NCBI RefSeq assembly: GCF_030060925.1
Contig: NZ_CP045455.1
Coordinates: 992,001-1,056,000 of the forward strand
Length of the DNA stretch: 64,000 nt
Reading direction: 5' to 3'
Source: Spiroplasma sp. SV19
GTDB lineage: Bacteria; Bacillota_I; Bacilli_A; Mycoplasmatales; Mycoplasmataceae
Shown here one piece after another: positions 5,367 through 49,162 of the stretch (its first letter is position 1; every line of letters begins with the position of its first letter). A model generated the notes under the pieces. That model saw only the letters and a list, made by a program, of their open reading frames with translations. It had not been told where the DNA came from and made no database searches. The translations under genes and the position numbers were made by a program.

Positions 5367-5385
5367 TATTTTTAATTAAGTTATG

Positions 5386-5434
5386 CTTAAAAATCTTTAC
5401 AGGGATTTTTAAGTTTTTTTTTTTTTTTTTTTTT
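5386..5434 (+). terminator. Terminator of the alsS-alsD operon
   Basis: CTTAAAAATC (5386-5395) pairs with GATTTTTAAG (5404-5413), followed by an unbroken run of 21 T (5414-5434). Confidence 0.9.
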
Positions 5435-5442
5435 GCAATTTC

Positions 5443-5471
5443 TTGCTTTTTTTTTTTTTTTTTTTTATAAT
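5443..5471 (+). promoter_or_regulatory. Poly-T spacer promoter of the lipoprotein gene
   Basis: TTGCTT (5443-5448) is followed by exactly 17 T and then TATAAT (5466-5471). The whole spacer is homopolymer (20 consecutive T from 5447 to 5466). Length change by slipped-strand mispairing would alter the -35/-10 spacing, as described for mollicute surface-lipoprotein promoters. Phase variation here is inference. Confidence 0.75.
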
Positions 5472-5508
5472 GAAAAAGAAGAAGTATATTACTTTTGGAG
5501 GATTAAAA

Positions 5509-7089
5509 ATGAAAAAATTATTAAGTTTATTAGGGGTCTTTGCCCTAAGCACAACTGGGGCAATTACTGTCGTAAGTTGCAGTTCAAAAGCAGACAACAA
5601 TAATGGTGATGGATCAGAAGAAATCGATGATAGTCATAAGGATGTTGAAATTTTAAATAAAATTAGTGAAAAAGTTAGAGAAAGTTTTGAGAATTTATCA
5701 TTTAAAGAAGATATAGAACGAAATAATCCGTATATGTTAGTAGCATATACCCGAGTTTCTGATAGTATAAAAACCTATCAATTAAATGATAACAATCAAG
5801 ATGATTTAACAATTAAAAATGAGTTTTTAACAACCTTTCGGGCAGTTTTTGATAATGTTAATCGTGAAATTAAAAATGAGTATTCAAATTATTATCCAAA
5901 TAGTAACCCTGTTTCGTTTAAGGAAAGTGATGTTATGATAAACTTAAACTTTATTGATATTCAAAAATTAATTACGTTATCAGGGTTACCTAATATGGAT
6001 GGATTGCAAGCTGTGGCAATTAATATTAATATTAAATATGCAGTTAAATTTAAAGAATTAGTAAGTGATAATGAATATCATGCATCGTTTAATATGACAA
6101 CAGATTTAAAAAAATTTAATTTAGTTAAAGGAGGAGCTTTAAGTTATTTTAATCAAAATATTATTGACTTTTATAAGGACAAGAATCAAATTGATATAAC
6201 TATTGGTGACTTTAAAACTTTATATGATACTTTTAATCTTGATTATAAAAAAGATTTAACTACAATAGATAATATTTATAAAAAAATATTAACTAATTTT
6301 ATTCAAAGCAATACAAACTTAAAGGATATGATTAGTTATAATAAAGATAAAGCATTTTTAGAAAGACAAACTATTTTGTTTGATAGTAATAATGAACGTG
6401 GGTTTTATTATAATGGTGGTAACCCAACTGTATCTGGTGCTTCACGATTAGATAAATGAATTAAAGATAATAATGTTGCGGAAGCAAAAGCAACTGATTT
6501 TGTAAGTTGATATATAAAGTCAGTAGTTCCAAAACTTGCTACTGAGTCAAAACTTGAGTTAGGAAAATTTAAATTCTCATTAGATTATATTAATATTTTT
6601 GGTATGACATTATCTGGTTATTTTAGTAATAATAATACTGATTTTATATCAACAGTTATTTTAACAAAAGAGAAATTAGAAGCAAAAATAACTAATTTTG
6701 CTAATATTGTTGTTGCCTTTTTAAAATATTATAAAGTAAATTTTACAGGAGAGTATCATTTTAATGTCTCTAATAACATATGGAACAATTTAGTTGCAAA
6801 ATATTTGGATAATAAATTAACAAATTATTCATTACCAGTAGCTTTATTTAAAGAATTTACTAGTGATCAAGATATCATTAATCAAAATTTCACAGACTTA
6901 GATTTGGTTACTTTTAAACAAGTAACTGGTTGAAGTATTTGAGAAGTGGCTTATGATAAAAATAAAAATCTTTTTTGGTTTAATGGTGGTGGACGTGATG
7001 CGAGTTTTGTTTTCGGAAGTTCGGAATTTTATTATATGCCGTTTTATTATTTATGAAGTAACCATCGTTATGTTGTTACTAAGATATAG
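5509..7089 (+). CDS. Surface lipoprotein, paralogous to 43980 and 45951
   Basis: A 526-residue protein that starts MKKLLSLLGVFALSTTG and has a lipobox ending VVSC, so it is a predicted membrane-anchored lipoprotein. It shares ordered motifs with the two 545-aa lipoproteins at 43980 and 45951: an N-terminal helical segment, FDNVNREIKNEYSNYY, a VxINLNFIDI strand, and a C-terminal IWEVAY...G segment. Function is unknown. The ATG at 5509 has GGAGG at 7 nt. Four UGA codons are Trp. Expression is probably governed by the poly-T promoter just upstream. Confidence 0.88.
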
Positions 7090-35739: not shown

Positions 35740-35785
35740 AAAGCAGGGGTACCCCTTTGCTTTTTTTTTTTTTTTTTTGTAAAAT
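35740..35785 (+). terminator. rplL terminator, overlapping a possible poly-T promoter
   Basis: AAAGCA-GGGG (from 35740) pairs with CCCC-TT-TGCTTT, then 18 T (35761-35778). The same DNA reads as TTGCTT (35757-35762), 17 nt, TAAAAT (35780-35785), which could drive the broken gene at 35815. The terminator function is surer than the promoter. Confidence 0.8.
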
Positions 35786-35814: not shown

Positions 35815-36674
35815 ATGCTAATAGATTTTTTATTTGATAGCAAATTTATAAAATTTACTAACCTAATGAGTAATATTTTTCATCAATAACATTTTGAATT
35901 TTTATTTGTTTCATTATTAGCATTTTTGTTCGTATTACTTTTTTAAAAGCAAAATCTTTTAAAACCCCTAGTAATAGTTTTAATAAAACTGAAATTGGTG
36001 TTTTTGTTTTTACTTTTATTAGTAATATTCTAATTTTAAGCGTTTTTAACATTCTAATTCAGCTGTACTTAGTTTCAGTAGCTACATCAACGATTGTTTT
36101 ACTAAATATTATTTTTTTTAGTTTGGTGTTATTTTTTATTATTACAAAAGCAAAATATTTTGATATTATTGTGATTTTTAATAAAATTATTGCTATTTTC
36201 TTTTTAGTTGCTTTTGCTCCAATTATTTTTACTTTAGTTCTTCAAACAATAGTGAAAGCAGAACATAATTTACTTTGTTTAATATTATGAGTGTTTTCTT
36301 ATGTAACTTTAATTGGTGCTATTATCATTAATAATAATACAACTGAGTTAAAACAAATTTTTCGTCGTTTATTTTTTGGTTTTATTTTAATATTATTAAT
36401 TCTAATTTTAAATTTACAGTTTATTGAAAATACAAAAGATATTAAATTATCAACAATCTTTAGTAGCATATTTATGCTTATTTTACTTTGAATTTGGTGT
36501 TGAAATGTTGTGCTAATGAAAAATACTGGTGCAGAGACCCAAAATGAAACACAAAATGAAGAGGATTTAAAATTTTTTGTATTAGCAATTAAAAATGATT
36601 CTTTAATAATGAATAAAACAATTAAGTATACAACAATTATTCTTAATGGTTATAAGCAGGTTCTAATAATTTAA
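35815..36674 (+). pseudogene. Decayed polytopic membrane protein
   Basis: A start at 35815 with a GGGAGTG site gives MLIDFLFDSKFIKFTNLMSN and then an in-frame TAA at 35887. After it, HFEFLFVSLLAFLFVLLF continues, and a missing T near 35945 shifts into a 240-codon frame (FLKAKSFKTPSNSFNKTEIG ...) that contains at least five membrane helices, for example ITLVLQT-like and IFRRLFFGFILILLILILNL, ending at TAA 36674. Two lesions indicate a pseudogene. Function of the ancestor unknown. Confidence 0.65.
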
Positions 36675-43979: not shown

Positions 43980-45617
43980 ATGAAAAAACTATTAAGTATT
44001 TTGGGGGCAATAACATTAGTTGGAGCTGTTACGCCAAATGTTATATCATGTCACAATAAAAAAGCTGTTAATAATGATAATACTGGTACTGTTAAAGATT
44101 TAGAAGTATTAAATGAAATTCAAGCAAAAGCAACTAAAAAAATTACTGAGAAATTAAAAACAAAAATGTATGTTGATAGTTTGAAAAATAATTTAGGTAA
44201 AATTTTCACAAAAGTAAATGATACTAACCAAACTTACCGCTTAAAATTAACTAGTGGTGATGATAGTCAATTAGGTGCTTATTTTATTAATGATTTTAAA
44301 AATGTTTTTGACAATGTTAATCATGACTTACAAAATGAATATTCAAATTATTTTACTGACAAAATGCCATTAACATTAGATGATGATCGGAATGAAATTA
44401 ATGTTACTTTTATTGATGTAACTGCTTTAAAAAAGAAATTTCCAGTTGATATTAATCCCGAGCCCTTTGCGGCGGTTAGAGTCGATTATAAAGCATCAAT
44501 TCATTTAGAATTTAAAAACTTATTTCTAAGTTTTGAATTAGCAACGATTTATAATGTCACAGAAAATGCTACTGCTTTAAAAGCTATTTCAGATAATACA
44601 ACCGCTTTCTTATTAAAAAATGTTAAAGAGTACTTTGCAAAATTAGAAACTGTTAATTTTAGTGAAAACGAAATTTTTAAGTCATTATATGATAAAGGAA
44701 TATGAGATTTTTCACAAAGCAGTAATGAATTAAATGAAACTTTAAAAAACTCATTTAAAGAGTATCTTGGCAGCAAAAAAGAATTTAAAGACATTGAAAT
44801 AACTTACAATGCCGTTGATTTAATGACAAAATCAGCGGAGGGAGATTTAAATAGCAAAAATAAAGGATATGATGGCATAACAAACAACTATAAGCAAAAG
44901 GACTTAACATTATCTAAATGAATTGGGCCAAAAACAGATGGATGAGAAGATATAGGGGCGATTAGTACTAATGATTTTGTTAAATTTTATCGAAACAATA
45001 TTGGAACTGCCTTTATGGGAGATAATTCAACCGATTTAAGTTTAGGCTCATTCACCATCAATTGAAATTATATTAATATTTATGGAATGGGTTTATCAGG
45101 TAATGTTAAAAGTACCGACGGAGAAGATTTAATTGTCACTTTAAATCTTTCCCAAGCAGCAGTTGATAAGAAACTATCAAATTGAGGAAAAATAATTATT
45201 ACATTTATTAAATATTATGGTGGTAAAACTATTAATGGTCCAAAAAACATTTTTGGTATTACTGACCAACTTTATAAAGAAATATCGCGAAAAAACCAAA
45301 AAAATGGATTAAGAGATGTTACTAAACTTTTAGTTGAAAATTTCAGAGAGTCTGATGATGCAAAAGATTTAGAAGATCTTGATTTATTTAATTTTATTGT
45401 TCATCCCCAAACACCCCAGAAATATCAAGGGATTACCATTAACCGACGTTTATTTTGAGACAGTTTAGGAGAAAAACCATGAGCCGTTTTATTCACATTT
45501 GGTGAAGATTTTAATACGGGCTTATATTATTCAATTGCATCAACGGATGGTAAATATACTGGTCGTCCAGCTGATGGGATTGTTTTTGGAGTTGAATTAA
45601 AAACAAATAAAAAATAA
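43980..45617 (+). CDS. Lipoprotein, tandem paralogue A
   Basis: 545 residues, signal MKKLLSILGAITLVGAVTPN and lipobox VISC. Alignable over the full length with the next gene (same length, 545 aa): FDNVNHDLQNEYSNYF, MPLTLDDDRNEINVTFIDV, FAAVRVDYKASI, WGKIIITFIKYYGG, and a C-terminal WAVLFTFGEDFNTGLYYS. Also related to the 5509 lipoprotein. AAAGGAG site. Surface protein of unknown function; tandem duplication suggests antigenic or adhesive roles. Confidence 0.85.
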
Positions 45618-45950: not shown

Positions 45951-47588
45951 ATGAAGAAACTATTAAGTATTTTGGGAGCTGTAACCTTAGTTGGGACTGC
46001 TGTACCAAATGTTATTTCATGTCATAATAAAAAAATAACCAATAACAATGAACTTAATACAAAAGATCTTGAAGTTTTTAATGAAATTCAAATAGAAGCT
46101 ACTAAAAGAATTAATCAAAAGATTAAGAACAATGCTTATGTTGACAGTTCAAAAAATAATTTATCAAAAATCTATTCCAAAGTAAACAAAGGAGATACTG
46201 AACCTTATCAATTAAAACTAAGCAATCCAGAGGACAATAAATTAGCGACTTATTTTATCGATAATTTTAAAAGAGCTTTTGACGGTGTTAATCGGGACTT
46301 ACAAAATGAATATTCAAATTATTTTGTTAATGAAATGCCATTAACATTAGATGAAGAAAGAAATGTTGTAAAAGTAACTTTCATTGATGTTGAAAACTTA
46401 CGTGATAAATTTCCAGCTGATGTTAAACCAGAATTGTTTTCAGCAGTGCGTGTTGATTATAAAGCGACAATTCAATTAAAATTTAAACAAATGTATGCTA
46501 GTTTTGAAGTATCAAGTATTTATAATGTTGCAGAAAATGTTTCAGCATTACAAGTTTTTTCAGACAAAGCTGTTAGTTTTTTAATTAAAAATATTAAAGA
46601 CTATTTTAATGAATTAGAAAGCACTAATTTTAGTGAAAATGAAATCTTTAAACCATTATATGAAAAGATAAATTGAGATTTTTCTAAAAATACTGTTGCT
46701 TTAAATGATACATTAAAAAATGCTGTTAAAAACTATATTGCAAGTAAAAAAGAATTTAAAGATATTACAATAAGCTATAATGCTGTTGACTTACTTGAAC
46801 AAGACCAAAAAGGGGATTTAACCTTTGAAAATAAGGGATATGATGGTTTATCAACATCTAGAGATCCAAAAGAGTTAACATTATCAAATTGAATTAAAGA
46901 GAAAGGACCAGAATGAAAGGACCTTGATGATATAACAGCAAGTGATTTCACTAATTTTTATAAAACTAGAGTTGCTTCAGTCTTTAATGTTGATGATAAT
47001 ATTGATTTAGTTTTAGGAACATTTAAAGTTAAATTAAATTATTTTAACATTTATGGTTTAGGTTTAACTGGGACAGTAAAAAACAAAGATAATGAAGATG
47101 TTACAATTACTTTAAACTTATCATGTTCAGCAATTGATAAAAAATTAACAAATTGAGGGAAAATAATTATTGCCTTTATAAAATATCTAAATGGGGCGTC
47201 AATTAATAGAAACGCAGTTAATTTTGGAATACCAAAAGAAATATATAGTAAAATGTGAACAAGAAACCAAAAAAATGGTCTAAAAGATGTTGCAAAATTG
47301 TTAGTTGAAAGTTTTAAAGCAACTGATGAAGTAAAAGATTTAGAGGACCTTGAGTCATTTAATTTGAGATCACACCCTTTATTTGAAAAGGTTAAAGGTG
47401 AATCTATTGCTAATGATAGTAGCGTCTTATCTTGAAATAATCAAACACTAGAATGTTGAGCAATTTTATTTACCTTTGGCGAAGATTTAGACACTGGATT
47501 ATTTTATTCGTTTGCTTCCAGACAACAAAATGCTGAAATTGGAACAGAGAACACTGGTGTTAATTTGAGAATGTTTAGAAAAGTTTAA
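45951..47588 (+). CDS. Lipoprotein, tandem paralogue B
   Basis: 545 residues, signal MKKLLSILGAVTLVGTAVPN and lipobox VISC. Same segments as paralogue A: FDGVNRDLQNEYSNYF, MPLTLDEERNVVKVTFIDV, FSAVRVDYKATI, WGKIIIAFIKYLNG, WAILFTFGEDLDTGLFYS. The region after residue about 30 and the extreme C-terminus differ most. Product of a local duplication. Predicted outer-surface lipoprotein; function unknown. The stop codon lies in the terminator stem. Confidence 0.85.
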
Positions 47589-49117: not shown

Positions 49118-49162
49118 AAAAAAGCAATTTCTATTGCTTTTTTTTTTTTTTTTTTTTTTTTT
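49118..49162 (+). terminator. Hairpin with a 25-T tract
   Basis: AAAAAAGCAA (49118-49127) pairs with TTGCTTTTTT (49134-49143); T run 49138-49162. The T tract also lies where a promoter spacer could be, but no well-spaced -10 was found. Confidence 0.7.

Follow-up and report, generated by a model that had tools for sequence, protein, structure and literature searches.

Introduction

The vlp tract of Mycoplasma hyorhinis is a run of A, and variation at the vlp site of Borrelia proceeds by recombination. In the vlp promoters of M. hyorhinis the homopolymer forms the spacer between the -35 and -10 boxes, and every lipoprotein gene has a promoter of its own (Citti and Wise 1995, as relayed in PMC2268961). 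As cited in PMC2268961, vlp, maa2 and vmm are the mollicute precedents for slippage promoters. Mycoplasma mycoides carries poly-TA in its lipoprotein promoters at several loci, and the length of the repeat differs between strains (PMC3053259). In the vpma family of M. agalactiae the genes are switched by Xer1 inversion at one promoter, and the T-tract beside the -10 of that lipoprotein promoter was shown to play no part in variation (PMC2268961). The Borrelia vlp expression site, a single site on a linear plasmid, has a poly-T promoter with a run of 46-174 T (PMC2525819).

The locus described here lies in a stretch of 64,000 nucleotides (the window) contained in the complete genome of Spiroplasma sp. 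SV19 (1,456,516 bases). It resembles vlp of M. hyorhinis in having a homopolymer between the -35 and the -10 and in that the lipoprotein genes each have their own promoter. It differs in that T rather than A stands on the sense strand, the loci are dispersed round the chromosome instead of clustered, the coding region (5509-7089) is not built of repeats, and switching in SV19 is a prediction from sequence. As with the vmm/poly-TA promoters of M. mycoides, several lipoprotein loci have a simple repeat in the promoter, but there the unit is the dinucleotide TA at five or six loci, whereas in SV19 it is T at at least 20. A T homopolymer directly upstream of a lipoprotein -10 is common to SV19 and vpma, although vpma relies on one promoter and Xer1 inversion and its tract is without a role. 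At the Borrelia site, too, the promoter region of a surface lipoprotein contains a long stretch of T, but this is a single plasmid-borne expression site and its run is far longer. The hallmark of Xer-type inversion (Vpma, Vsa) is one promoter next to a cluster of silent genes that have inversion sites in common; this arrangement was not encountered in SV19, since the loci are dispersed with promoters of their own and no strong inverted repeat was found at the promoter at 5443.

Results

Promoter anatomy upstream of the lipoprotein gene

The following elements were located at and around the promoter.

5385..5434, forward strand: intrinsic terminator at the end of the upstream gene, with a hairpin at about 5385-5413 and a T21 tail at 5414-5434 (from folding; hairpin kept in the nearest relative, G010)
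5443..5448, forward strand: -35-like box TTGCTT (from sequence); TTG is the fixed anchor, and the run begins with the final two T of the box
5447..5466, forward strand: homopolymer T20 (from sequence), of which 17 T (5449-5465) make up the putative promoter spacer
5466..5471, forward strand: -10 box TATAAT, 6/6 (from sequence), retained in the orthologue of the nearest relative
5497..5501, forward strand: ribosome binding site GGAGG (from sequence)
5509..7089, forward strand: lipoprotein gene, 526 aa, signal peptide MKKLLSLLGVFALSTTGAITVVS followed by the lipobox cysteine, Cys24 (LP_plasma match; 26 genome matches)

The run of 20 T has GCAATTTCTTGC before it and ATAATG after it, and the elements stand in the order GCAATTTC TTGC, T20, ATAATG, the GGAGG site and the ATG at 5509. 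The sequence confirmed the initial annotation in that exactly 17 T of the run stand between TTGCTT and TATAAT. The -10 at 5466 is perfect, while the -35 at 5443 is weak (3/6 vs TTGACA); for this reason a consensus promoter scan requiring 4/6 reported no promoter at 5443-5471. The T-run at 5447-5466 is best explained as the -35/-10 spacer of a promoter belonging to the 526-aa lipoprotein gene itself. The mechanical list of open reading frames puts the start of this gene at the TTG at 5443; the ribosome binding site and the lipoprotein signal place it at the ATG at 5509. The window DNA reads with TGA as tryptophan.

We assign the T21 at 5414-5434 to the terminator of the acetolactate decarboxylase gene and place it outside the promoter. 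The hairpin 5' of it folds with -11.1 kcal/mol (z -5.0) and is still there in the nearest relative, where the T-run of the terminator has only 8 T. That the T20 is instead the tail of a second terminator, with GCAA-TTTC-TTGC as its hairpin, is hardly credible: a 4-bp hairpin does adjoin the run, as comparable ones adjoin a minority of tracts, but its fold is weak (-2.3 kcal/mol, z -0.9), a second terminator would be redundant behind the strong one at 5385-5434, and the orthologue in the nearest relative has TTGC-Tn-ATAAT without this hairpin. The terminator reading of T20 was rejected on the weak fold and the loss of the hairpin in the orthologue.

The lipoprotein and its family

The protein encoded at 5509-7089 is matched by the NCBIfam model LP_plasma at 3.8e-8. 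Against spiralin_LP it reached 28.6 bits (cut-off 140), in the N-terminal part only, which does not place it in the spiralin family, and no substantial array of tandem repeats was found in its coding region. The initial annotation had counted a family of three copies. This holds inside the window only; the whole genome contains 26 matches to the protein, distributed round the chromosome. The two other copies in the window were said to lack a T-tract, and upstream of both this proved correct:

43980..45617, forward strand: distant paralogue, 28% identity, no upstream tract (genome protein matches; tract survey)
45951..47588, forward strand: distant paralogue, 28% identity, no upstream tract (genome protein matches; tract survey)

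A protein search of other genome contigs gave no match to the lipoprotein, and a search of viral contigs for other strains of the locus gave none. The upstream neighbour encodes an acetolactate decarboxylase with 83% identity to the Spiroplasma poulsonii enzyme; in an alsD neighbour search S. poulsonii MSRO_BK was the sole match, and no lipoprotein follows alsD there. Plasmid pSNTEN_3 of the Nesidiocoris symbiont sNten (AP029042.1 4135-5712) carries a 75% relative of the lipoprotein, annotated as hypothetical and without a T-tract.

T-tracts form a distinct class across the genome

All 66 tracts of the whole genome were surveyed, and background statistics were obtained on a 464-kb sample. T-runs of 12 or more number 66 in the genome; all are 15-36 long and none 12-14. 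In the 464-kb sample there were no T-runs of 11-14 and then 21 of 15-34, where first- to fifth-order extrapolation predicts 0.2-0.7 runs of 15 or more. In all 21 the T stand on the strand with most of the genes (77%), and no A-run in the sample exceeds 9. At 25 of the 66 tracts TTG lies within the 5 nt before the run (shuffles: mean 3.1, maximum 9), and a TATAAT-like box (at least 5/6) follows directly 3' in 44 (shuffles: expected 26, maximum 39); both are present at 24 tracts (36%) vs 2.7% of short T-runs. Terminator-type tracts with a clear hairpin account for 8 of the 66, sometimes with a promoter tract next to them, as at 5385-5471. Two further tracts in the window are:

35761..35778, forward strand: tract of promoter class, TTTGC T18 GTAAAATTATATTATG (run survey; T17 at the equivalent place in the nearest relative)
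49138..49162, forward strand: long T-run, GCAATTTCTATTGC T25 AAATAAAAT (run survey)

The gene behind the T18 (MLIDFLF..., window 35815-36674) has its frame broken after about 24 codons, while the copy in the nearest relative is intact with 286 aa; it is either a real pseudogene or the product of an assembly indel. A repeat of 190-260 nt (91-96% identical) lies upstream of the tracts at window 49138-49162 and at genome positions 70828, 703722 and 906178, and is perhaps a mobile element remnant carrying or sharing the tract. Some genes have two successive T-tracts (genome 381290/381370, 1140172/1140250, 120838/120870, 1192341/1192361). A near-identical double-tract module of 78-108 nt stands upstream of two lipoprotein loci with its lengths swapped (T20+T16 vs T16+T20).

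Tracts are enriched at lipoprotein genes

For the counts that follow, genes were called by simple means and lipoproteins recognised by a simple rule for the signal peptide. In the whole genome a tract lies within 260 nt of at least 20 lipoprotein genes. In the 464-kb sample a tract was present at 7 of 23 lipoprotein genes vs 10 of 448 others (p 3.6e-6, odds ratio about 19). The tract-bearing lipoprotein loci are dispersed round the chromosome, each with its own promoter. Two further lipoprotein copies have a tract and a broken start frame; at both (genome 283542 and 1455121) the break falls in a short A-run directly behind the ATG, and a second slippage site, decay or an error in sequencing could account for it.

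This enrichment at surface lipoproteins, together with the specific placement of TTG at the 5' end of the tracts, speaks against a fixed design, in which a stiff, easily melted T-rich spacer would set basal strength at lipoprotein and some other promoters, with drift in length tolerated and the -10 doing most of the work. A tuned T-rich element would also tolerate substitutions, whereas the tracts are pure homopolymer and avoid 11-14 T. Such a design would account for the tracts at non-lipoprotein genes and has parallels in the vpma T-tract, which exists without switching (PMC2268961), and in the T-rich lipoprotein promoter regions of Borrelia (PMC2525819). It also agrees with the ordinary promoters of SV19: among 128 tract-free TATAAT sites, the number with TTG was only slightly raised at spacers of 16-17 (7 and 5 vs about 3), and from this weak signal the -35 may matter little in SV19. 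On balance the fixed design appears rather unlikely.

Tract length differs between paralogues and species

Where both boxes could be placed, spacers ranged from 13 to 26 and were 16-18 in 11 of 24; the window gene, with 17, is therefore among those in the expected on-range. The orthologue in the nearest relative (82% identity) has TTGC-T18-ATAAT with a spacer of 15, and 29 reciprocal tract pairs were found between the two genomes, in flanks only 72-75% identical. Within the SV19 genome, close paralogues have tracts of T17/T22 (94% over 1.5 kb), T20/T24 (93%) and T16/T24 (88%), a gap of 4-8 T. Variation in length is thus seen between species, as one genome against that of the nearest relative, and between paralogues.

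All 44 tracts of the nearest relative have 16-18 T, 30 of them exactly 17, in promoter and terminator classes alike, and other members of the genus seldom have T-runs of 19 or more. This uniformity suggests that sequencing or the calling of a consensus reached its limit in those records, or else that the species differ. Exact lengths are provisional, in the SV19 genome too. Could the differing run lengths be mainly sequencing or assembly artefacts, with no real variation behind them? The uniform lengths over all tract classes, the scarcity of genomes with runs of 19 or more, and the frame breaks in some SV19 genes, at short homopolymers or elsewhere, would fit such a view. However, all of the 14 genus genomes surveyed have tracts of 15 or more T, and 29 tracts recur at orthologous places; therefore the tracts are real and only their exact lengths are doubtful. 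A purely artefactual origin of the length differences appears very unlikely.

Discussion

A putative slipped-strand switch

The initial annotation saw in this locus the architecture of phase-variable lipoprotein promoters. Part of this stood: the homopolymer spacer is real, many lipoprotein genes have one, and lengths differ between close paralogues and between species, which is what a vlp-type switch predicts. Whether the tract acts as a switch is less certain, as the vpma T-tract has no such role (PMC2268961). In SV19 the repeat fills the -35/-10 spacer, surface lipoprotein genes lie downstream and MutS_I is absent, a supporting rather than strictly defining feature of slipped-strand promoters. 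MutS_I was not found in the SV19 genome and was found in 11 of 14 controls; its absence is in line with unstable tracts. These results suggest, with a probability of roughly 60%, that SV19 has promoter switches like those at vlp of M. hyorhinis, dispersed over the genome and acting through slipped-strand changes in spacer length. Doubt comes mainly from the M. agalactiae counterexample (PMC2268961) and from the ordinary promoters of SV19, where the -35 signal is weak.

Beyond the anatomy of the sequence, the steps of the switch are modelled on vlp, maa2 and vmm (cited in PMC2268961). Slippage of the polymerase in replication would add or remove T. RNA polymerase, by analogy with vlp of M. hyorhinis, would initiate well at a spacer of about 17 and poorly otherwise. 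The lipoprotein gene would then flip on or off at random, the assembled copy having the on-length. Each tract-bearing lipoprotein gene may switch by itself and, since at least 20 have their own tract and spacers range from 13 to 26, a cell would show a random mix of surface lipoproteins. The wider proposal of a phasome, in which these independently switching promoters and the tract promoters of other genes yield combinatorial surface variation, is put forward tentatively, at somewhat less than even odds.

Significance for Spiroplasma

T-runs as such are not new, because long ones occur in 85 of 119 genomes of the order, common but patchy. No description of T-tracts in Spiroplasma lipoprotein promoters was found in the open-access papers searched; what is added here is the systematic position of T-tracts in these promoters. 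The tract loci make up a ready list for reading tract lengths out of strain data that already exist. Promoter phase variation via repeat slippage is known in vertebrate mycoplasmas. Spiroplasma is a largely arthropod- and plant-associated genus, and insects are not known to have antibodies. If the switch is true of at least 20 loci in Spiroplasma, surface bet-hedging would go beyond escape from antibodies.
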